This document shows positions 31,591 through 42,801 of a stretch of DNA of 64,000 nucleotides, in pieces. How positions within the stretch are numbered: the stretch's first letter is position 1; every line of letters begins with the position of its first letter. The notes beneath the pieces are model-generated. The model was not told the origin of the DNA and made no database searches. It worked only from the letters and a program-made list of their open reading frames with translations. Source of the stretch: Ruegeria sp. EL01. Lineage in GTDB: Bacteria > Pseudomonadota > Alphaproteobacteria > Rhodobacterales > Rhodobacteraceae. The stretch is taken from the NCBI RefSeq assembly GCF_900313035.1, contig NZ_OMPS01000048.1, positions 1-64,000 on the forward strand, written 5' to 3'. The position numbers were made by a program, and so were the translations under genes.

Positions 31591-31630
31591 TTGACAGGCC
31601 GGGTCCGTAAGGGTCCGGCCTTGCTGTCAA
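31591..31630 (+). repeat. Long stem-loop between glpX and recJ
   Basis: TTGACA (31591-31596) pairs with TGTCAA (31625-31630), and GGCCGG (31597-31602) pairs with CCGGCC (31615-31620), with a four-base bulge. The hairpin ends immediately before the recJ ribosome site AGGGG. No T-run follows, so it is not a classic terminator. It may limit recJ translation or mark an mRNA processing site. A smaller TTGCC-TTA-GGCAA repeat lies at 31562-31574. Confidence 0.5.
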
Positions 31631-31641
31631 AGGGGAACGGA

Positions 31642-33384
31642 TTGAGCTTTTTGGGGGTCGAACAATCGCTAACTGGCCGGCGTTGGATTGGACCCACGCC
31701 CGAAGTTGAACGCGCGGCGGAAATGCTGGCGCAACAGACTGATCTGCACCGGGCGGTCTGCCAGGTGCTTGCCCGGCGCGGAGTGCCTCCTATGGAGGCG
31801 CAGAGCTTTCTGGACCCCAAGCTCAAAGAACTCTTGCCCGATCCGCGCACCCTGAAAGACATGGAAATCGCGGCTACCCGGTTTCTGCAGGCCGCTCACC
31901 AAAAGCAGCGTATCGCTGTGTTTGCTGATTACGACGTGGATGGCGGCAGTTCTGCAGCGTTACTGTTGGTCTGGTTGCGCCAGATGGGTGTGCAGGCGAC
32001 CTTTTATGTGCCTGACCGGATCGACGAAGGTTATGGCCCGAATGTACCAGCCATGCAAACGCTGGCGAAGTCGCATGACCTGATCATTTGTGTGGATTGC
32101 GGCACACTCAGTCATGAGCCCATCGCGGCTGCCAAGGGTGCCGATGTCATCGTTCTGGACCACCATCTTGGCGGCGAAACCCTGCCCGAGTGTGTGGCGG
32201 TCGTGAACCCGAACCGGCAAGACGAAAGCGGCGATCTGGGGTATCTGTGCGCAGCAGGCGTGGTCTTTCTGATGTTGGTCGAAGCTGGCCGTCAGATGCG
32301 GGGCACGGGGACCAAAGGTCCTGATTTGATGTCTTTGCTGGATCTCGTTGCCCTAGCAACGGTTGCGGATGTGGCGCCTTTGATCAGCGCCAATCGAGCG
32401 CTGGTACGACAGGGCCTGAAGGTTATGGCCGCGCGCAAAAGACCGGGTCTGGTGGCCCTGTCGGATGTGGCAAGGATGGATTCTGCTCCAAACAGTTATC
32501 ATCTGGGATTTCTTCTGGGGCCGAGAGTCAACGCAGGTGGCCGGATTGGTCAGGCTGATCTTGGCGCGCGATTGCTAAGCACCGAGTCGATGACCGAGGC
32601 CGAAGCCCTGTCCGAGCGTCTGGACGCGTTGAACTCCGAACGGCGGGAGATCGAAAACGCGGTCCGAGCCGCCGCGCTGGACCAAGCCGAGGATCGGGGC
32701 TTGGACGCACCACTGGTCTGGGCCGCCGGTGAGGGTTGGCACCCCGGAGTCGTCGGGATTGTCGCCTCGCGTTTGAAAGAAACGGCAAATCGTCCCGCCA
32801 TCGTCATCGGACTTGATGGGGATGAGGGCAAAGGCTCGGGACGGTCTGTATCGGGCGTCGATTTGGGTGCGTCGATCCAAAGGTTGGCCGCGGAAGGTTT
32901 GCTGGTGAAAGGCGGTGGCCACAAAATGGCGGCTGGTCTGACGGTAAAGCGCGATCAGTTGGAACCGGCCATGGAACGATTGAGCGAGCTGTTGGCCAAA
33001 CAAGGGGCCGGACAAGGCGGACCAGCGGATTTGAAGCTGGACGGTACGCTGATGCCCAGCGCGGCGACGGTTGATCTGATCGAACAGATTGAAAAGGCAG
33101 GTCCTTTTGGCGCCAGCGCCCCTGCCCCACGTTACGTTTTGCCTGATCTTCAGGTGCGCTTTGCCAAACGCGTGGGCGAGTCCCATTTGAAACTGTCCCT
33201 GTCGGACGGCATGAGCAGTGGGCTTGATGCGATAGCCTTTGGTGCGTTTGATGGACCGATCGGAGAACGGCTGTCAAATCACGGCGGTGCACGGTTCCAT
33301 TTTGCCGGTCGGCTCGAGATCAATTCATGGGGCGGTCGACAAAATGTGCAACTGCGCCTCGAGGACGTGGCGGAGGCCAATTGA
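31642..33384 (+). CDS. recJ: Single-stranded-DNA-specific exonuclease RecJ
   Basis: A 580-residue 5'-3' ssDNA exonuclease of the DHH superfamily, acting in recombination and mismatch repair. Motif I is 'AVFADYDVDGGSSAALL', motif III contains 'VIVLDHHLGGETLP', and 'RVNAGGRIGQADLGARLL', 'HPGVVGIVASRL' and 'KGGGHKMAAGLTV' (DHHA1) follow. The TTG at 31642 (encoding MSFLGVEQSLTGRRW) is chosen because AGGGGAACGG directly precedes it and the conserved sequence starts here; the open frame extends back to 31591 inside a hairpin. It follows glpX by 92 bases. Confidence 0.94.
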   Translation: MSFLGVEQSLTGRRWIGPTPEVERAAEMLAQQTDLHRAVCQVLARRGVPPMEAQSFLDPKLKELLPDPRTLKDMEIAATRFLQAAHQKQRIAVFADYDVDGGSSAALLLVWLRQMGVQATFYVPDRIDEGYGPNVPAMQTLAKSHDLIICVDCGTLSHEPIAAAKGADVIVLDHHLGGETLPECVAVVNPNRQDESGDLGYLCAAGVVFLMLVEAGRQMRGTGTKGPDLMSLLDLVALATVADVAPLISANRALVRQGLKVMAARKRPGLVALSDVARMDSAPNSYHLGFLLGPRVNAGGRIGQADLGARLLSTESMTEAEALSERLDALNSERREIENAVRAAALDQAEDRGLDAPLVWAAGEGWHPGVVGIVASRLKETANRPAIVIGLDGDEGKGSGRSVSGVDLGASIQRLAAEGLLVKGGGHKMAAGLTVKRDQLEPAMERLSELLAKQGAGQGGPADLKLDGTLMPSAATVDLIEQIEKAGPFGASAPAPRYVLPDLQVRFAKRVGESHLKLSLSDGMSSGLDAIAFGAFDGPIGERLSNHGGARFHFAGRLEINSWGGRQNVQLRLEDVAEAN

Positions 33385-33492: not shown

Positions 33493-33567
33493 GGCCCGTT
33501 CGTCTATCGGTTAGGACGCCAGGTTTTCAACCTGGAAAGAGGGGTTCGATTCCCCTACGGGCTACCA
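33493..33567 (+). tRNA. tRNA-Glu (anticodon TTC), copy 1
   Basis: A 75-nt tRNA with encoded CCA. The acceptor stem is GGCCCGT with ACGGGCT, and the anticodon arm CCAGG-TTTTCAA-CCTGG gives anticodon TTC (Glu). The T arm contains GGTTCGATTCC. The sequence is identical to the copy at 33638. Confidence 0.97.
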
Positions 33568-33637: not shown

Positions 33638-33712
33638 GGCCCGTTCGTCTATCGGTTAGGACGCCAGGTTTTCAACCTGGAAAGAGGGGTTCGATTCCCC
33701 TACGGGCTACCA
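33638..33712 (+). tRNA. tRNA-Glu (anticodon TTC), copy 2
   Basis: Identical over all 75 nt to the gene at 33493-33567 and 70 bases downstream of it, so it is a tandem duplicate. The spacer between them is AT-rich (a TGTTTTTATATATTTT stretch) and does not look duplicated beyond a few bases. No clear terminator follows. Confidence 0.97.
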
Positions 33713-33799: not shown

Positions 33800-34582
33800 C
33801 TATTCTGGTGCTGCGACCTGCACGTCTATACCCCACTCTGCAAATGAACTTGCCAGGGGTTCTTCAGGTGACTTGTCCGTCACCACTGTCCGCACCATGC
33901 GCGGATCTGGGCCGACATAAGGGGCAGTTTCGCCGAACTTATAGTGTGATGCTGCCATAACGACATTATCGGCATTGCCAATAGCCACGGAGGCGAGGTC
34001 AACCTCGGCCAGGCTTTGATACAGAAATCCTTTTCGCGCTGAAATCGCATCGGTGCTCAGGACAGCAAGGTCGAACGCATAGCGCTGCAATTGTCTATGG
34101 GTCACATGACCAAATGTTCCTCGCTCGTCGCTTTGCATTTCTCCGCCAAGCAGATGCACCCTGATGCCGCGTGTCCCCACCAGCGTCTGAGCAACAGCGA
34201 CTGAGTTGGTCACGATCGTAAGATCTCAGACCTGACGCAGTTCTTCCGCGACAAACGCTGTAGTGGACCCAACATCCATAAATACAGTCATTTGATCCTG
34301 CACAAGTTTGGCGACATGAGCGGCAATCCGACGTTTTTCATCGGCATGTTGAGAAATGCGGTGAAAGAAACTCGGGTCACCCTGCGCACCGGCCAGATAG
34401 GCCCCGCCGTGAACACGCTCAACCGTGCCCGCCTTTGAAAGGGCCTTGATCGTGCGGCGCACCGTTTCCTCGGATACATCCAGCGTCTTTGCGAGATCCG
34501 AATTCCGCGCAGTTCCGCCCAGACGGCGCAACACATCGAGCAGTTCCAGTTCACGATGGGTATTAGGTGCGTGTTTTTTCAC
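33800..34582 (-). pseudogene. glpR: DeoR/GlpR-type regulator interrupted by one in-frame TGA
   Basis: The minus strand encodes a full-length DeoR-family regulator (about 260 codons) in a single frame, broken only by TGA at 34228-34226. The first part (118 residues) has the HTH 'RNSDLAKTLDVSEETVRRTIKAL' and the start of the sensor domain ('VFMDVGSTTAFVAEELRQV'). After the stop the frame continues 'DLTIVTNSVAVAQTL' to the end. In homologues an arginine usually stands at the stop, so CGA-to-TGA is the simplest origin. The rest looks intact, so the lesion is recent or a sequencing error. The divergent operon at 35230 encodes a glycerol-type ABC transporter, its likely target. Readthrough, or a restart at the GTG at 34213, cannot be excluded. 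Confidence 0.85.
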
Positions 34583-35229
34583 AAAGCGCTCCGCAGCTTT
34601 CAGAACCTCCGCGAAAATACACCAAATCAGACTGCCATCAAGCCGGGCATTCGCAACGAATGTTCGCGCTTTGCAGCGTATTTTGGTTCGGCACGCCCTT
34701 TAACCCAACAGTCTAAAATTCACCCGGCACAAAAGTTGATTCTGCTGTCAGGGCAAATTGTGTTCTATCGCGTTGGCTGAGGCGTTGTGGATACTCTCCG
34801 TCACCCCGTCAGCGATGCAAATGCTGGCCGGACATCTGCCCTTTCTGATTACCCAGCATGGAATTGCGTGACCTCGCAAAAAAGCCGGACGAGGACTTTT
34901 TCCCGCTCCAGAAGCACCGTTACGTCGAACCTCTCCACGCACGTTATCGCTGTTGGACCACTTCCGACAACGAAGCTCTTTGATCGGCGAAAAGTGGTCA
35001 ATCGAAACGCCATTCTCCCCTGTTGCGCGCATCAAGTACTCCGAAAAAATTACTTCTTTTTTAATAACTTAGAACCGATCGTTGAATGGAAAATAAGGTC
35101 AAATTTAGCCGCCAAACGCCTGCGGAATTTCATTTACTAAATTTTTAGTTTGACAGGCAGGCTGAAAATCGCTGATGCTGTCCGGCATCCGGTCTGCGCC
35201 GGGTAACCACAATTTTTGGGAGGAAACAG
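34583..35229. promoter_or_regulatory. Long intergenic region with candidate promoter and operators of the glp transporter operon
   Basis: This 647-base divergent gap holds no supported gene. Near the regulator, CATTCG-CAA-CGAATG (34648-34662) is a perfect inverted repeat of the TTCG...CGAA type used by GlpR-like proteins. Near the transporter, ACTAAA-TT-TTTAGT (35136-35149) abuts TTGACA (35149-35154), a likely -35 element; the -10 is weak (CTGATG/TGATGC near 35172-35178). GGGAGG precedes the ATG at 35230. The length leaves room for an activator site or small RNA, which I cannot identify. Confidence 0.5.
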
Positions 35230-36969
35230 ATGCGGAGACATCTACTTTCCGCAGTGGCGGCGGCTGCCGTCATTGCGGGGCATGGTCCTGTTTGGGCCGA
35301 CGAAGCCGCAGCGCAACGCTGGATCGACGACGAGTTCCAGCCATCGACCCTGTCGAAAGACGAACAGATGGGTGAAATGCAGTGGTTCATAGAAGCTGCA
35401 CAGCCTTACTCTGGCATGGAAATCAACGTTCTGTCCGAAGGCATTCCAACGCATTCTTACGAATCCGAGGTTCTGACCAAGGCGTTCGAGGAAATCACGG
35501 GTATCAAAGTCAATCACCAGATCCTCGGTGAAGGTGAAGTGGTTCAGGCTGTGCAGACTCAGCTTCAGACAGGTCGCAACCTGTATGACGGCTATGTCAA
35601 TGACAGCGACCTTATCGGTACCCACTCGCGCCTGCAGCTGGCCTATCCGCTGACGGACATGATGGGTGGTGATTGGGCGGCGTCAACTTCGCCGACGCTG
35701 GATCTGGATGACTTCATGGGCATTCAGTTCACCACTGGCCCGGACGGTAAGCTGTATCAGCTTCCTGATCAGCAGTTCGCCAACCTCTACTGGTTCCGCA
35801 AGGACTGGTTCGATGATGAAGCCAACAAGGCCGCGTTCAAAGAGAAGTACGGCTATGATCTGGGTGTTCCGGTCAACTGGTCTGCTTACGAAGACATCGC
35901 CGATTTCTTCACCAACGACGTGAAAGAAGTCGACGGCACCACGATCTATGGTCACATGGATTACGGCAAGCGCGCGCCTGACCTGGGCTGGCGTATGACG
36001 GACGCCTGGCTGTCGATGGCTGGCGCCGGCGATGTGGGCGAGCCCAATGGTATCCCGGTCGACGAATGGGGCATCCGCATGGAAGCGGGCACCTGTAACC
36101 CGGTCGGTGCTTCGGTGTCGCGCGGTGGTGCCGCCAATGGTCCAGCTGCGGTCTATGCGATCCGCAAGTGGGACGAATGGCTGCGAAACTACGCCCCTCC
36201 GGGCGCGGCGTCTTATGACTTCTACCAGTCGCTGCCGGCACTCAGCCAAGGCAACGTGGCCCAGCAGATCTTCTGGTACACTGCCTTTACCGCCGACATG
36301 GTGAAGCCGAAGTCTGAAGGCAACAACACCGTAGATGACGAAGGCACGCCGCTGTGGCGGATGGCACCCAGCCCGCACGGCCCCTATTGGGAAGACGGTC
36401 AGAAGGTTGGGTATCAGGACGTGGGGTCCTGGACCTTCCTGAAATCGACCCCTGCGGATCGCGCTCAGGCGGCGTGGCTCTACGCTCAGTTCGTGACGTC
36501 CAAGACTGTCGATGTGAAGAAGTCCCATGTGGGTCTGACCTTCATCCGCGACAGCTCGGTCAATCACGAGTCGTTCACCGAACGCGCACCCAAGCTGGGT
36601 GGACTGGTCGAGTTTTACCGCTCACCTGACCGCGTGGCATGGTCACCGACCGGCATCAACGTGCCGGACTATCCCAAGCTGGCCCAGATCTGGTGGCAGC
36701 AAATTGGAGACGTGAACTCGGGCGCCTTCACCCCGCAAGAGGCGATGGACCGTTTGGCTGAAGAGATGGACATCACCATGGCCCGCATGCAGGCCGCGGA
36801 TGAAAGCGCCGGTGTCTACGGTGGCTGTGGCCCCCGCCTGAACGAGCCACAGGATGCGTCCTTCTGGCTGGAAAAGGCGGGCTCGCCCAAGGCCAAGCTG
36901 GAGAACGAAAAGCCGCAAGGCCAGACCGTCAACTATGACGAGCTGGTTCAGCGCTGGCAGTCCCAGTAA
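35230..36969 (+). CDS. glpV: Glycerol-type ABC transporter substrate-binding protein (GlpV family)
   Basis: A 579-residue family-1 extracellular solute-binding protein, notably longer than the usual 420-450. The signal peptide covers about residues 1-24 (MRRHLLSAVAAAAVIAGHG, cleavage near VWADEAAAQ). 'IPTHSYESEVLTKAFEEITGIKV' and 'QQIFWYTAFTADMV' fit COG1653 proteins of the GlpVSTPQU system described for glycerol uptake in Rhizobium leguminosarum. It is the first gene of the operon, with GGGAGG before the start. The substrate is inferred from the whole gene set, not from binding residues. Confidence 0.87.
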   Translation: MRRHLLSAVAAAAVIAGHGPVWADEAAAQRWIDDEFQPSTLSKDEQMGEMQWFIEAAQPYSGMEINVLSEGIPTHSYESEVLTKAFEEITGIKVNHQILGEGEVVQAVQTQLQTGRNLYDGYVNDSDLIGTHSRLQLAYPLTDMMGGDWAASTSPTLDLDDFMGIQFTTGPDGKLYQLPDQQFANLYWFRKDWFDDEANKAAFKEKYGYDLGVPVNWSAYEDIADFFTNDVKEVDGTTIYGHMDYGKRAPDLGWRMTDAWLSMAGAGDVGEPNGIPVDEWGIRMEAGTCNPVGASVSRGGAANGPAAVYAIRKWDEWLRNYAPPGAASYDFYQSLPALSQGNVAQQIFWYTAFTADMVKPKSEGNNTVDDEGTPLWRMAPSPHGPYWEDGQKVGYQDVGSWTFLKSTPADRAQAAWLYAQFVTSKTVDVKKSHVGLTFIRDSSVNHESFTERAPKLGGLVEFYRSPDRVAWSPTGINVPDYPKLAQIWWQQIGDVNSGAFTPQEAMDRLAEEMDITMARMQAADESAGVYGGCGPRLNEPQDASFWLEKAGSPKAKLENEKPQGQTVNYDELVQRWQSQ

Positions 36970-37055
36970 GCCTTTGAGAACCGGGGATGCCGCGACAGGC
37001 ATCCCCACCCAAGACGAAAACAGCGCATAGCGCTGCGGGATCGGAACCCACGGAC

Positions 37056-38105
37056 ATGATCGAACTTCAAGACGCGACCAAACGGGTCGGCAACGTCATC
37101 CATATCAAACCTACATCTCTGACCCTGCAGACAGGCCACTTCAATGTGCTGCTTGGGGCCACCGGGTCAGGCAAGACCTCTCTGATCAAGATGATGGCCG
37201 GGCTTGACCCGATTGCCTCGGGCAAGGTCCTGATGGACGGGCAGGATGTGACCCGGCTGAACACGCAAAAGCGTAAAATCAGCCTCGTGCACCAGTTCTT
37301 TGTGAACTACCCACATATGAGTGTTTTCGACAACATCGCCTCGCCATTGCGCGTGGCTGGCATGGCGCAAAGCGAAGTAGAGGGGCGCGTCGAAGAGGCG
37401 GCCGACCTGCTGCAACTGCGCCCGATGCTGCAACGTCGCCCGCATGAGTTATCCGGCGGACAACAACAACGCACCGCTTTGGCACGTGCGATTGCCAAGG
37501 AAAGCCGCGCAGTGTTCCTGGACGAACCGCTGGCCAACTTGGATTACAAGCTGCGCGAAGAACTGCGCGAGCAACTGCCCGATCTATTCGCAGGACGCGG
37601 CGCCGTCGTGGTCTACGCAACGTCAGAACCCGAAGAAGCGCTTCTGCTCGGTGGTCAAACCGCACTGATGGAAGATGGTCGTGTGACCCAGTTCGGCCCA
37701 ACCGCCGACATCTACCGCAACCCCGAAAATATCGCTGCCGCGCGGGTATTTTCCGACCCGCCCATCAATCTGGCGCGCATCACCGTCTCAGGCACCGATG
37801 CCCAACTGGAGGGCGGTGGCAACTGGACCGTCGGTGACATGGCGGACGGGGAATACACCGTTGCCGTGCGCCCTCACCGGGTAACGCCGTTCCGCACATC
37901 GGATGCGGATATCGAGCTGACAGGCCGCGTGATAGTCACTGAACTCTCGGGCTCGGATTCCAGCGCCCATTTCCAACATGGCGAAGACGCGTGGGTATCA
38001 CTTGCTGTCGGCGTGCACCCTTATGAAGTGGGCGAAGATCACAGTTTCTATATGAACCCGGCCCATTGCCGATATTTCAGCCAAGACGGCAAAAGGGTGG
38101 CCTGA
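37056..38105 (+). CDS. glpS: Glycerol-type ABC transporter ATP-binding protein GlpS
   Basis: A 349-residue ATPase of the MalK/UgpC group. Walker A is 'LLGATGSGKTSLIKMMAG', the signature is intact 'LSGGQQQRTALARAIA', and Walker B is 'RAVFLDEPLANLD'. The switch histidine is absent: where others have THDQ, this protein reads 'VVYATSEPEEALLLGG'. A C-terminal TOBE-like regulatory domain follows. The ATG at 37056 starts the conserved MIELQDATKRVG; the upstream ATG at 36987 adds 23 residues. It pairs with GlpT, whose defect is complementary. The GlpT gene starts one base after its stop. Confidence 0.88.
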   Translation: MIELQDATKRVGNVIHIKPTSLTLQTGHFNVLLGATGSGKTSLIKMMAGLDPIASGKVLMDGQDVTRLNTQKRKISLVHQFFVNYPHMSVFDNIASPLRVAGMAQSEVEGRVEEAADLLQLRPMLQRRPHELSGGQQQRTALARAIAKESRAVFLDEPLANLDYKLREELREQLPDLFAGRGAVVVYATSEPEEALLLGGQTALMEDGRVTQFGPTADIYRNPENIAAARVFSDPPINLARITVSGTDAQLEGGGNWTVGDMADGEYTVAVRPHRVTPFRTSDADIELTGRVIVTELSGSDSSAHFQHGEDAWVSLAVGVHPYEVGEDHSFYMNPAHCRYFSQDGKRVA

Positions 38106-38106
38106 C

Positions 38107-39183
38107 ATGGCACAGATCAAGCTTTCAAACCTCCGCCACAGCTATATGCCGTCGCCGAAAGGCCCAGACGACTATGCCTTGAAGGAAATCGATGTCACTT
38201 GGCGTGATGGTGGCGCTTATGCACTGCTGGGGCCGTCGGGCTGTGGGAAGTCCACTTTGCTGAACATCATCTCGGGCCTGCTGACCCCGTCCGAGGGGCA
38301 GATTCTGTTCGATGATCGCGACGTAACCGCCCTGCCCCCGGATCAGCGCAACATTGCACAGGTGTTCCAGTTTCCAGTGATCTACGACACGATGACCGTG
38401 GGTGAGAATCTGGCATTTCCTCTCAAAAACCGGGGCGTCGATGTCGCCACGATCAAGCGTCGCGTCGATGAGATCGCCGAGATGCTGGATGTCACGGATA
38501 TGCTGCGTACCAAGGCCTCCGGTCTCAGCCCTGACAACAAGCAAAAAATCTCGATGGGCCGCGGTTTGGTCCGCGACGACGTGAACGCGGTGATGTTTGA
38601 CGAGCCGCTGACCGTGATCGACCCGCATCTGAAATGGAAGCTGCGATCCAAGCTGAAAGAGCTGCACCAGCGCGTCAAAGCCACGATGATTTACGTGACC
38701 CACGACCAGACCGAGGCGCTGACCTTCGCGGATGAGGTTGTGGTGATGCAGGACGGCGAAGTGGTTCAGATCGGCACGCCGGTCGAGCTGTTCGAACGCC
38801 CTCAGCACACATTCGTCGGTCATTTCATCGGCTCGCCTGGTATGAACGTCCTGCCCTGCGAGGCCAAAGGCGACCGCGCGGTGTTCGAAGGGCACGAAGT
38901 TGCGCTGGAAGGCCCGGCGCATGGCGACGGAGGCCGGACTGATCTGGGCATTCGGCCAGAATATGTGGGCTTTGGTGATACCGGAATTCCAGCGCATGTG
39001 ACCAAAGTCTCGGACATTGGCCGCCACTATGTGGTCAGCGCCATGGTCGGAAATACGGCCCTGAAGGCCGTGACCGAACGCAGCGTGCCCGAACCGGGAT
39101 CACAGGTCTTCCTGCAATTCAAACCTGAACAATCGCGCGTCTACCGTGACGGCTGGATCGCGACCAAGGAGCGGGCCCAATGA
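38107..39183 (+). CDS. glpT: Glycerol-type ABC transporter ATP-binding protein GlpT
   Basis: A 358-residue ATPase. Walker A is canonical ('LLGPSGCGKSTLLNIISG'), Walker B is 'AVMFDEPLTVIDPHLKW', and the switch histidine is present ('IYVTHDQTEALTFAD'). The ABC signature is degenerate: 'LSPDNKQKISMGRGLV' replaces LSGGQ. With GlpS it should form a heterodimer in which only the site made by GlpT Walker motifs and the GlpS LSGGQ is complete. The C-terminus carries a TOBE domain. It overlaps the next permease gene by four bases (ATGA). Confidence 0.88.
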   Translation: MAQIKLSNLRHSYMPSPKGPDDYALKEIDVTWRDGGAYALLGPSGCGKSTLLNIISGLLTPSEGQILFDDRDVTALPPDQRNIAQVFQFPVIYDTMTVGENLAFPLKNRGVDVATIKRRVDEIAEMLDVTDMLRTKASGLSPDNKQKISMGRGLVRDDVNAVMFDEPLTVIDPHLKWKLRSKLKELHQRVKATMIYVTHDQTEALTFADEVVVMQDGEVVQIGTPVELFERPQHTFVGHFIGSPGMNVLPCEAKGDRAVFEGHEVALEGPAHGDGGRTDLGIRPEYVGFGDTGIPAHVTKVSDIGRHYVVSAMVGNTALKAVTERSVPEPGSQVFLQFKPEQSRVYRDGWIATKERAQ

Positions 39184-40043
39184 GAACGGAAAATCAAAGA
39201 GCCTGGTTCTTTGTCCTGCCAGTTCTGGCGCTGGTGGCGTTCAATGCGCTGGTTCCGATGATGACGGTGGTCAATTATTCGGTGCAAGAAACCTTTGGCA
39301 ACAACCAGTTCTTCTGGGAAGGACTGGGCTGGTTCGAACAAATCCTGCGCTCTGACCGGTTTCAGGCCGCTTTGGGACGGCAATTCCTGTTTACCTTCAT
39401 GATCCTGATCATCGAGGTGCCCTTGGGTATCATCGTCGCCCTGTCCATGCCGCGCAAAGGTTTTTGGGTGCCGGTTTGTCTGGTGCTGATGGCGCTGCCG
39501 ATGCTGATCCCTTGGAATGTTGTGGGCTCGATGTGGAACATCTTCACCCTGCCCAAGATCGGCCTGCTGGGATACTTCCTGAATGACGTTCTGGGCATCA
39601 ACTATGACATGACCCAACAGCCGCTGTCGGCCTGGATTACAGTCATTGTGATGGATGTTTGGCACTGGACGTCGCTGGTGGTACTGCTGTGTTATGCGGG
39701 CCTCGTGTCGATCCCGGATGCCTATTATCAGGCGGCCAAGATCGACGGCGCCAGCCCATGGTCGGTGTTCCGTTACATCCAGTTGCCCAAGATGAAGACG
39801 GTTCTGACGATCGCAATCCTGCTGCGGTTCATGGACAGCTTCAATATCTATACCGAGCCGTTTGTTCTGACCGGAGGTGGCCCCGGCAACTCGACCACCT
39901 TGCTGTCGATCGACCTTGTGAAGATCGCGCTGGGACAGTTCGACCTAGGCCCTGCGGCGGCGATGAGCCTGATCTATTTCGCCATCACGCTGCTTGTGTC
40001 GTGGCTCTTCTACACTCTGATGACAAAGGATGACGCAGAATGA
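39180..40043 (+). CDS. glpP: Glycerol-type ABC transporter permease GlpP
   Basis: A 287-residue MalF-type inner-membrane permease with six hydrophobic segments, beginning 'RAWFFVLPVLALVAFNALVPMMTVVNYSV'. The EAA loop is 'AYYQAAKIDGASPWSVFRYIQLP', the coupling helix that contacts the ATPases. The start overlaps the end of glpT and its stop overlaps the next permease start (ATGA), so all subunits are coupled. Confidence 0.88.
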   Translation: MRTENQRAWFFVLPVLALVAFNALVPMMTVVNYSVQETFGNNQFFWEGLGWFEQILRSDRFQAALGRQFLFTFMILIIEVPLGIIVALSMPRKGFWVPVCLVLMALPMLIPWNVVGSMWNIFTLPKIGLLGYFLNDVLGINYDMTQQPLSAWITVIVMDVWHWTSLVVLLCYAGLVSIPDAYYQAAKIDGASPWSVFRYIQLPKMKTVLTIAILLRFMDSFNIYTEPFVLTGGGPGNSTTLLSIDLVKIALGQFDLGPAAAMSLIYFAITLLVSWLFYTLMTKDDAE

Positions 40044-40837
40044 AAAAGCGTTCCCTCATCCCGATCCTGTACATCGCGTTCCTAATGCTGCCAATCTATT
40101 GGCTGGTGGCGATGTCCTTCAAGACTACGAACGAGATCCTGTCGGGCTTTTCCCTGTTTCCCCAAACCTTTACGCTGGAGAATTACACCACGATTTTCAC
40201 CGATCCGACATGGTACTGGGGCTACATCAACTCGATCACCTATGTGACTTTGAACACGATACTTTCCGTGTGCGTCGCGCTACCTGCCGCCTATGCGTTC
40301 TCGCGATACAGGTTTCTGGGGGACAAGCAGCTTTTCTTTTGGCTGCTGACCAACCGAATGGCCCCTGCGGCGGTTTTCGCCCTGCCGTTCTTCCAGCTGT
40401 ACTCGTCCATCGGTTTGTTCGACACCTATCTGGCCGTGGCACTGGCACATACGCTGTTCAACGTGCCGCTGGCTGTGTGGATTCTCGAAGGCTTCATGCG
40501 CGGCATCCCGAAGGAACTGGATGAGACGGCTTACGTAGACGGCTATTCCTTCCCGCGGTTCTTCGTGACGATCTTCTTACCGAACATCAAAGCGGGCGTG
40601 GGCGTCGCGGCCTTTTTCTGCTTCATGTTCTCATGGGTGGAAATGTTGCTTGCGAAAACCCTGACTGCGGTTGAGGCCAAGCCTATCGCCGCCGTGATGA
40701 CCCGCACCGCGTCAAGCGCAGGGTATGAGTTGGGCTTGCTGGCCGCCGCCGGCACCCTGACCATCATCCCCGGTGCCATCGTCATCTGGTTTGTTCGTAA
40801 TTACATCGCGCGTGGTTTCGCGATGGGACGCGTGTGA
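40040..40837 (+). CDS. glpQ: Glycerol-type ABC transporter permease GlpQ
   Basis: A 265-residue MalG-type permease. It opens with 'IPILYIAFLMLPIYWLVAMSFKTTNEI', typical of the family, and carries the EAA loop 'KELDETAYVDGYSFPRFFVTIFLP'. Together with GlpP it forms the membrane channel. It is coupled by ATGA overlap to glpP and overlaps or abuts the GlpU start region. The name follows the R. leguminosarum transporter and is unrelated to the GlpQ phosphodiesterase. Confidence 0.88.
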   Translation: MKKRSLIPILYIAFLMLPIYWLVAMSFKTTNEILSGFSLFPQTFTLENYTTIFTDPTWYWGYINSITYVTLNTILSVCVALPAAYAFSRYRFLGDKQLFFWLLTNRMAPAAVFALPFFQLYSSIGLFDTYLAVALAHTLFNVPLAVWILEGFMRGIPKELDETAYVDGYSFPRFFVTIFLPNIKAGVGVAAFFCFMFSWVEMLLAKTLTAVEAKPIAAVMTRTASSAGYELGLLAAAGTLTIIPGAIVIWFVRNYIARGFAMGRV

Positions 40838-40845
40838 GGTTCGAT

Positions 40846-41253
40846 ATGCGCAAACTTCTATTCACCCTCCCGCTTCTCCTCCCTACCTCTGCTTTGGCGC
40901 AGGCCGCAGCCGGATGGGGCAGTGTCGGCCAGCAAGAAGAAAAAGCGTTCTCCTGGACGGCCCCGCTGTGGCCCGATTTCTGGATGGCTTGGACACCCGC
41001 AACACTCGCCGTGTTTGTTGGTATCTTTTCGGCTATCGCCTTGATTGGCATTCTGGAAGTCACCCGATTTCGGGACGGGATTGAACGACGCGGTGTCCTT
41101 GGCCTGACCACAACCTTAGGAGACCGGTTGTTCATTACGCTGCTTGGATCGGTCTACATCTTCCTGGCATGGCTTGGCTTTGTGGGGCAGCCGGTCTGGG
41201 TACCGCTTTTCCTGTCTATTGGTTGGGGCGTTTTTGTTTTCTCGAAAGTTTAG
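40846..41253 (+). CDS. glpU: DUF2160 membrane protein (GlpU)
   Basis: A 135-residue small membrane protein of the DUF2160 family, found in glycerol-type ABC operons. It has a signal peptide or first helix (MRKLLFTLPLLLPTSALAQ) and two further transmembrane segments ('WTPATLAVFVGIFSAIALIGIL' and 'LFITLLGSVYIFLAWLGF', the last close to a third hydrophobic run). The ATG at 40846 has GAGG six bases upstream; a GTG at 40834 overlapping the GlpQ stop is the alternative. Its role in transport is unknown. In other genomes it lies before the binding-protein gene, whereas here it is last. Confidence 0.82.
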   Translation: MRKLLFTLPLLLPTSALAQAAAGWGSVGQQEEKAFSWTAPLWPDFWMAWTPATLAVFVGIFSAIALIGILEVTRFRDGIERRGVLGLTTTLGDRLFITLLGSVYIFLAWLGFVGQPVWVPLFLSIGWGVFVFSKV

Positions 41254-41303: not shown

Positions 41304-41717
41304 ATGGCGACACCGAAACCGATGCGTAAGAAAAAGACGACAAATCTGCTGACCGAGGTTGAACTTGAGTTCATGAACGAACTCTGGGCCCTCGGACAAG
41401 GCTCGGTTCGTGACGTTCTTGACCGCCTGCCGCCAGAGCGCAATCTGGCCTATACATCAGGTGCGACGATCCTGCGCATTCTCGACGAAAAAGGTTTTGT
41501 CGAAAGTCGTAAGGACGGCAAAACACTGATCTACAGGCCCCTTCTGGAAAAAGACAGGTATCAGGCACGATCGCTTCAAAACCTGTCCCGTACATTGTTC
41601 GATGACACGCCCGCCACACTGGTGGCGCGATTGGTAGACGACGCGGGGCTGAGTGAAGATGATCTTGAGGAAATTCGAGCACTGGTAGAGAGGAGACTGC
41701 AAAATGACAGCGGTTAA
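41304..41717 (+). CDS. BlaI/MecI/CopY-family transcriptional repressor
   Basis: A 137-residue winged-helix repressor. 'TEVELEFMNELWALGQGSVRDVLDRLPPERNLAYTSGATILRILDEKGFVESRKDGKTLIYRPLL' region is the standard BlaI HTH and wing, with the C-terminal dimerisation helices after residue 85. In known systems a M56 membrane protease triggers cleavage of BlaI. That partner follows directly here, overlapping by 14 bases. No beta-lactamase or PBP gene is adjacent, so the regulated target is unknown. Confidence 0.86.
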   Translation: MATPKPMRKKKTTNLLTEVELEFMNELWALGQGSVRDVLDRLPPERNLAYTSGATILRILDEKGFVESRKDGKTLIYRPLLEKDRYQARSLQNLSRTLFDDTPATLVARLVDDAGLSEDDLEEIRALVERRLQNDSG

Positions 41718-42801
41718 ACCGGTTCTCGATGCGTATCTCGAATTGAATATCGTGCTGGGGTTTTCAGCCGTAATCTGGCTGGCGGCGCGCGCCGCGCTGG
41801 CCCGCACATCGCTGCGATACGGGTTTGTGGCGCAACTTCGCACGCTCAAAGCCCTGTGTATCTGTGTGCTGCTCAGTCCGCTATTGGCCCTTGGTGTCTC
41901 TGCGCTTGCTGCGTCTGCATGGCCCGGCCAAGCTGTTGGTTTGGGTGATATTGCGGTGGCAGCTTATTTGCGGGGCGAGATTTCGATGCCTGCAACTCAG
42001 TTCGAGGCGCTGTTGAACACCCGCGAACGATGGGTCGATCTTGTCCTGTCTGGACAAAATACAGCGCTGACGATCACCCTGGCACTGCTGGCTGCAATCG
42101 CCAGCTTGTTTACTGTTCGCGCCATCCGCGACGCGCTGGCGATCCGAAATGCGGTTGCCAACAGTTTTCTTTGGCGTCGGTCCACCAAGGTGGACATTCG
42201 CCTGTCAGATCGCATCACCATCCCCTTCGCTGTGCGCGGATTGCGCCGTCGCCATGTGGTGTTGCCCAGTCATCTTCTGGACACCCCGCGCGAGCTGCGG
42301 TTCGCCTTGGCGCATGAGTTTCAGCATATCCGCGCTGGCGACGTGGAGTGGGAGCTGGGTTTTGAAATCCTGCGCCCCCTACTGTTCTGGAACCCGGCCT
42401 ACCTGATGCTCAAGTATCAATTCGGTCGATTGCGCGAATTGGCCTGTGACCAGTCAGTGGTTGCCCGCAAACGGATTGATGCTCGCGAATACACGACGTG
42501 CCTGCTGGACTATTGCGCCCGCACTGTCACGATGGGTCGCCCACGTGTGTTGAACGTGGCCTTGGTCACCGGAGGCAAAGCCAAGCGGGTGCTACGGCAG
42601 CGGGTCATTGCGCTGACGGACGCCCCGTCAGTTTCGGCACCTTTACCGGCTGTGTTTTTGGGCCTGACGCTGAGTTTTGCCACCCTTCTTGCGCTGGGTG
42701 CCGCATCGCTGCAACAGACGCAAGACTGGAGCCATGATCGTTTGATGTTGTCCACGGTTGTAAACCTGGAACGGTTGGAAGCCCGTAATCAAGGCAATTG
42801 A
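41704..42801 (+). CDS. M56-family membrane metallopeptidase (BlaR1-like, no sensor domain)
   Basis: A 365-residue membrane protein with hydrophobic segments near residues 12-30, 48-75, 115-140 and 310-330. The zinc-protease motif is 'LAHEFQHIRAGDVEWEL' (HExxH), with 'LRELACDQSVV' further on providing the third ligand region (E-x3-D). BlaR1/MecR1 proteins carry an extracytoplasmic penicillin-binding domain after this; here the protein stops at about the last helix, so the signal it senses is not a covalently bound beta-lactam in the classical way. It probably cleaves or signals to the coupled BlaI-type repressor. It is convergent with the MATE gene, seven bases apart. Confidence 0.84.
   Translation: MTAVKPVLDAYLELNIVLGFSAVIWLAARAALARTSLRYGFVAQLRTLKALCICVLLSPLLALGVSALAASAWPGQAVGLGDIAVAAYLRGEISMPATQFEALLNTRERWVDLVLSGQNTALTITLALLAAIASLFTVRAIRDALAIRNAVANSFLWRRSTKVDIRLSDRITIPFAVRGLRRRHVVLPSHLLDTPRELRFALAHEFQHIRAGDVEWELGFEILRPLLFWNPAYLMLKYQFGRLRELACDQSVVARKRIDAREYTTCLLDYCARTVTMGRPRVLNVALVTGGKAKRVLRQRVIALTDAPSVSAPLPAVFLGLTLSFATLLALGAASLQQTQDWSHDRLMLSTVVNLERLEARNQGN

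Follow-up and report, generated by a model that had tools for sequence, protein, structure and literature searches.

Among the closest described systems is that of Cupriavidus metallidurans, in which disruption of glpR by an insertion sequence (glpR::IS1088) rendered the neighbouring glycerol-type ABC transporter constitutive, as reported in PMC7912956. The Ruegeria locus described here resembles that case in having lost a DeoR-type gene next to such a transporter, but the C. metallidurans regulator is named GlpR and its control of the transporter is documented in the same paper. GlpR proteins of Alphaproteobacteria (Rhizobium leguminosarum, Sulfitobacter, Paracoccus and Maritalea) share with the gene described here the superfamily, the order of domains and a nearby glycerol-type ABC transporter. 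Other DeoR genes, in Ruegeria and its relatives, are linked to genes for an inositol-monophosphatase, an Na-Pi symporter, an FGase, a glutamine-synthetase-like protein and an aldehyde dehydrogenase. Finally, DeoR pseudogenes created by nonsense mutation likewise carry HTH_DeoR and DeoRC domains in a frame that is open except for one in-frame stop; the copy described here differs from these in that the history of its stranding is legible from an adjoining V-type ATPase remnant.

The window, meaning the whole 64,000-nucleotide stretch that was analysed, comes from a Ruegeria-type genome of 5.32 Mb (49 contigs, 99.99% complete), designated G000 in a sample of 54 genomes of the genus. The regulator gene and the genes on its 3' side are as follows.

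31591..33384, forward strand, conserved flank gene, presumably recJ-like, 87-92% identical in six relatives
33493-33567 and 33638-33712, forward strand, two tRNA-Glu genes, which the regulator also adjoins in six relatives
33800..34582, reverse strand, DeoR-family regulator pseudogene, 118 codons, a stop, 141 codons in the same frame and a final TAG
34226..34228, reverse strand, the in-frame TGA, codon 119, at a variable position of DeoRC according to frame reading and the codons of relatives

The tandem tRNA-Glu genes are 145 bp apart from start to start, compared with 97-101 bp in five relatives, and G018 has three copies.

The regulator frame starts with a GTG preceded by a GGAG motif, and neither a second internal stop nor a frameshift was found between 34582 and 33800. 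The part before the TGA matches Pfam HTH_DeoR (41.9 bits, cut-off 21) and positions 2-40 of DeoRC (39.3 bits, cut-off 31.8), and the part behind it matches DeoRC positions 47-160 (80.1 bits), so that the two domains that define the DeoR family are present in order and above their cut-offs in a frame that is interrupted. The entire split frame aligns with its nearest relative at 79% identity over 257 residues, and this, together with the domain matches on both sides, indicates one gene with one stop rather than a chance arrangement, as the first-pass annotation had proposed. Of the named organisms that carry the gene, Ruegeria haliotis is the nearest. Because the TGA falls within the DeoRC sensor domain, after approximately 40 of its 160 positions, a truncated product would retain the HTH together with a short part of the sensor. 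The earlier expectation that the HTH is kept thus holds, but the sensor is not wholly lost. The predicted 118-residue product, from which most of the sensor domain is absent, is most likely inert. A scan for promoters and terminators between 33400 and 35400 found 0 and 2 sites, respectively, compared with 1.1 and 2.8 in shuffled sequences.

Orthologs at 61% identity or more were detected in 10 of the 54 genus genomes, G000 included, and the next match is at 51%. The codon corresponding to the TGA was read in 18 related copies, comprising nine same-genus orthologs, six other named records, two more distant same-genus copies and a paralog on contig C39 of G000. It is a sense codon in all 18, and the stop is confined to the window copy. 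Among the 15 orthologs, the residue at this position is Arg in four, Gly in three, Asn, Glu and Ser in two each, and Gln and Lys in one each; the nine same-genus orthologs have Gly, Asn, Glu, Ser, Ser, Gly, Glu, Gly and Gln, and none has Arg. CGA occurs in one of the 15, a sequence that is 61% identical. As the position is variable, the CGA-to-TGA transition given as the origin of the stop in the first-pass annotation cannot be claimed and is one possibility among others.

The same comparison bears on the proposal that the TGA is read through, or that translation restarts at a GTG (34213) five codons past the stop, to yield a working protein. A dN that is low before as well as behind the stop across most of the branch would suit readthrough, but a stop at this non-conserved position is shared by none of the related copies, and searches for SelB and tRNA-Sec gave no match over the cut-off, the best tRNA-Sec score being narrowly below it (46.3 versus 47). 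A product restarted at 34213 would begin within DeoRC, at position 47 of 160, and would be missing the HTH. A working protein made by either route is therefore extremely unlikely. A recoded selenocysteine gene was rejected on the same absence of a retained stop and of SelB and tRNA-Sec matches.

The gene had been described as glpR-type. A tree was constructed from 16 DeoR proteins, including five GlpRs from glp operons of Maritalea, two Sulfitobacter, Paracoccus and Rhizobium, and in it the window gene groups with the Ruegeria orthologs, apart from the five GlpRs, with a split support of 100/100. The Maritalea GlpR forms a long branch, which the tree program flagged with a warning on long-branch joins. 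The window regulator is 25-30% identical to the five GlpRs, compared with 39-68% for a DeoR gene on contig C49 of the same genome that falls in the GlpR clade and is divergent from glpD. The halves of the window gene, scored separately, reach 56 and 43 bits against the NCBIfam GlpR cut-off of 331, and the C49 gene, at 240.7 bits, is also below it. Neither glpD nor glpK was found among the scanned neighbours of the window regulator; a glpD is present on contig C49, accompanied there by a DeoR gene of its own. The tree split and the identities indicate that G000 keeps a GlpR-clade gene and that the broken gene lies outside that clade, so the glpR-type assignment was not retained. The C49 gene was also considered as a second broken regulator and rejected, as the TAG in its matched stretch ends a 277-residue frame and the gene is intact.

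The linkages of the orthologs suggest a different former role. An ortholog is located within 1 kb of an Na/Pi symporter gene in four of the ten genus genomes (G006, G018, G026 and G037; this count took ten symporter rows from the nine other genomes with an ortholog), beside the gene for V-type ATPase subunit A in four (G006, G018, G035 and G051), and next to neither in four (G000, G015, G043 and G047). The gene order in G037 is regulator, inositol-monophosphatase-like, symporter, N-formylglutamate-amidohydrolase-like, glutamine-synthetase-like and aldehyde dehydrogenase, and Ruegeria conchae has the same module minus the symporter and with an additional Fe-alcohol dehydrogenase. The window gene is 61-79% identical to these module-linked regulators and belongs to the same clade, but differs from them in having none of these partners adjoining and in carrying a stop. 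Each of the nine same-genus genomes in which the ortholog is intact has a symporter match somewhere, and none was found in G000 at E 1e-20. As 42 of the 54 genomes, distant ones included, match at the same threshold, and as only one genome has the stop (n=1), the tie between symporter absence and breakage of the regulator is at most suggestive.

Parts of such a module persist in G000. Contig C28 carries glutamine-synthetase-like, aldehyde dehydrogenase and Fe-alcohol dehydrogenase genes at 417-425 kb (L106, 3312-11231), together with an amidohydrolase-like gene (51% identical). None of the genome's five DeoR matches, no phosphatase and no Na/Pi symporter gene adjoins this cluster. Contig C39 has a related phosphatase gene (66% identical), separated by about 8 kb from the DeoR paralog on that contig. 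Survival of the C28 genes and of this phosphatase means that not every candidate target is gone, and these may possibly be remaining targets of the regulator.

On its other side, the regulator faces the following transporter genes.

35130..35229, forward strand, conserved transporter upstream region, with 78-90% identity to the corresponding stretch in eight relatives, of which three have no copy of the regulator
35230..36969, forward strand, GlpV-like substrate-binding protein (SBP; SBP_bac_1), from Pfam and genus comparison
36987..38105, forward strand, ABC ATPase 1, UgpC-like, below the NCBIfam cut-off
38107..39183, forward strand, ABC ATPase 2, UgpC-like, below the NCBIfam cut-off
39180..40043, forward strand, permease 1, BPD_transp_1
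40040..40837, forward strand, permease 2, BPD_transp_1
40846..41253, forward strand, small membrane protein (DUF2160), with a start codon assigned by eye

An SBP, two ATPases, two permeases and a small DUF2160 membrane protein make up the GlpSTPQUV-type composition, and the same composition is described for a glycerol-type ABC transporter in PMC7912956. The intact glycerol-type transporter noted earlier is borne out by this gene content, and glycerol is the predicted substrate. The Ruegeria-type arrangement (35230-41253) has the SBP gene first and glpD and glpK not adjoining, unlike the glp operons compared; a glpD/glpK operon was not found among the neighbours scanned here, nor beside the transporter in Ruegeria conchae and Aliiroseovarius, and is present in Maritalea. 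The SBP is strongly conserved, being 93-99% identical in 49 other genus genomes and 64% identical in one more. BlaI/MecI-type repressor and M56 peptidase genes located 3' of the transporter (41304-42801) form a candidate control pair that also accompanies it in Ruegeria conchae, Aliiroseovarius and Maritalea.

The transporter is present in 51 of the 54 genus genomes, and 42 of these 51 are without this regulator. In the annotated records of Ruegeria conchae and Aliiroseovarius, for which the gene table is incomplete, no DeoR gene is listed beside it. The 100 bp upstream of the transporter are also kept in the three genomes without the regulator that were compared. On these observations, dependence of the transporter on this regulator would be unlikely. 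The first-pass annotation had suggested that truncation could derepress the transporter or, through the HTH alone, silence it permanently. Such an effect has a parallel in Cupriavidus, where the insertion in glpR rendered a transporter of this type constitutive. An arrangement that would suit it exists in Maritalea, where a DeoR gene and a similar transporter with the SBP gene first are divergent, 222 bp apart, and accompanied by glpD and glpK. However, the Maritalea regulator is 24.7% identical to the window gene and groups with the GlpRs, albeit on a long branch, most genomes have the transporter without this regulator, and the neighbourhood itself appears to be the product of a deletion (see below). 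A change in transporter expression through loss of an adjacent repressor is thus very unlikely.

The region between the regulator and the transporter contains the trace of that deletion.

34583..34715, reverse strand, interval that separates the start of the regulator from the subunit A remnant, 134 bp by the coordinate difference that gives 133-140 bp in four relatives
34716..35034, reverse strand, decayed 3'-terminal piece of a gene for V-type ATPase subunit A, matching nt 1511-1832 of the 1836-nt region of G018

At the DNA level, the remnant aligns across 325 bp with 59% identity (E 8.7e-13 when the whole window is searched) and scores 66.8 bits; the best match elsewhere in the window reaches 31.1 and the top score among 1000 random sequences is 34.0. 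At the protein level, 44 residues match at 45% identity with an internal stop, which lies in the in-frame piece 34804-34935, and the score is 40.8 bits, against a maximum of 26.2 among 1000 random sequences. The random controls were first-order Markov sequences with the dinucleotide make-up of the gap and not exact shuffles. The best other protein match in the window is to another subunit-like protein at 51394-50948 (33.5 bits, 26% identity over 173 residues, E 4.8e-4), and a further one, at 2044-2292, scores 29.3 bits. No convincing match to other V-ATPase subunits was found in the gap (34583-35229), and subunit A has no match in G000 at E 1e-60.

Subunit A was found in 33 of the 54 genus genomes, with no match in the other 21. 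In 19 of these 33 genomes its distance from the SBP gene is 5,789-5,865 bp, and in G035 it is 1,958 bp; the gene is elsewhere in 13, one of these at 20.5 kb and twelve either on another contig or in genomes where the transporter match is missing. In all four genomes with both genes (G006, G018, G035 and G051), the regulator is behind subunit A at the coordinate difference given above, and the V-ATPase cluster sits between the tRNA-Glu genes and the transporter. The approximately 320-bp stump, together with the lack of subunit A in G000, indicates that the cluster was lost here, leaving the regulator adjoining the transporter; their adjacency is apparently secondary and due to this loss. Two of these four genomes have altered copies of subunit A, with an internal TAG in G018 (L035, 6268-8103) and a match that begins only at residue 141 in G035 (L036, 10033-13168). 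The remaining 31 of the 33 matches are full length and free of stops. G043 has an arrangement similar to that of the window with an intact regulator. Neither G043 nor G047 has a subunit A remnant at the protein level, and a single 24-bp DNA match in G047 was not counted. As the G043 gene is intact though similarly stranded, stranding alone does not doom the gene.

The relative ages of the two lesions can be compared. Over the same 44 codons only, dN between the remnant and intact copies of subunit A is 0.38-0.46, compared with 0.08-0.11 among the intact copies themselves. The window regulator has a dN of 0.107 against G018, with dS about 2 and near saturation (branch-wise dS is saturated), and its end branch in the tree is 0.13, compared with 0.11 for G018. 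A decayed remnant beside a regulator with low dN and an end branch close in length to that of G018 indicates that selection continued to act on the regulator long after loss of the cluster and that the stop is recent. The order of events is apparently that the cluster was lost first, the regulator was kept and the stop came later, in agreement with the earlier view that the gene, well kept in other respects, has undergone one recent nonsense change.

The rate behind the stop was compared with that before it by counting residues found only in the window copy against those found only in G018. With the majority of G035, G051 and G043 as outgroup, the counts are 6 versus 5 before the stop (p 1.0) and 19 versus 9 after it (p 0.087); with the majority of G037, G006, G047 and G026 they are 3 versus 7 and 12 versus 7 (p 0.36 after), and with that of all nine, 4 versus 6 and 15 versus 7 (p 0.13 after). 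For the nine single outgroups, p behind the stop ranges from 0.043 (G043 and G006) to 1.0, with no excess when G037 (13 vs 12), MAG3 (7 vs 12) or G015 (8 vs 10) is used, and the direct before-versus-after comparison gives p 0.025 with G006 and 0.146 to 1.0 with the other eight. Five sites that are invariant in ten other sequences are changed in the window copy, one before the stop and four behind it; other copies have 0-3 such changes, but G015 has 9.

These figures also bear on a sequencing or assembly error in a gene that is really intact. A single base is at issue, known from one genome and seen in its assembly alone, the frame has no other lesion, and the end branch is close to that of G018, all of which would fit an error. 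Against it are the five altered residues that are otherwise invariant, four of them past the stop, the absence of the linked symporter from the genome, and the low prior probability that would be expected for a single substitution error in an assembly of this completeness and contig number. An error is on balance unlikely.

The locus is very probably a stranded, recently inactivated DeoR regulator undergoing ordinary gene decay, with the fossil of a cluster deletion adjoining it. Deletion of the V-ATPase cluster would have left the regulator beside an unrelated transporter and its promoter, and the regulator may have kept its job in trans for some time after stranding. Its likeliest target would be the phosphatase, Na-Pi symporter and FGase-GS-aldehyde dehydrogenase module linked to the orthologs, as predicted from that linkage. 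Once the symporter was gone, selection could have been relaxed and a chance stop tolerated. The transporter would be controlled by something else, for example the intact gene of the GlpR clade that adjoins glpD, or the BlaI-type pair that follows the transporter. A broader proposal, which is quite improbable, is that a DeoR subgroup of roseobacters controls the V-type ATPase and/or the Na-Pi symporter module, and that the 118-residue form would persist as a protein that binds DNA constitutively for lack of a sensor and acts on the GS/aldehyde dehydrogenase cluster still present in the genome. Literature searches found no paper on such a DeoR subgroup, no report of a DeoR regulator with a V-type ATPase operon in Rhodobacteraceae and none of a V-type ATPase pseudogene in Roseobacter.

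The main value of the V-ATPase remnant is that it appears to date the stranding of the regulator before the stop and accounts for a misleading neighbourhood. Present-day adjacency can mislead, since a regulator beside a transporter looks like a switch even where, as is apparently the case here, the junction was made by deletion. The finding that a bacterial V-type ATPase is damaged or missing in several members of one genus, through a stop, a truncation or the absence of a subunit A match, may be of interest for work on the ion pumps of roseobacters.
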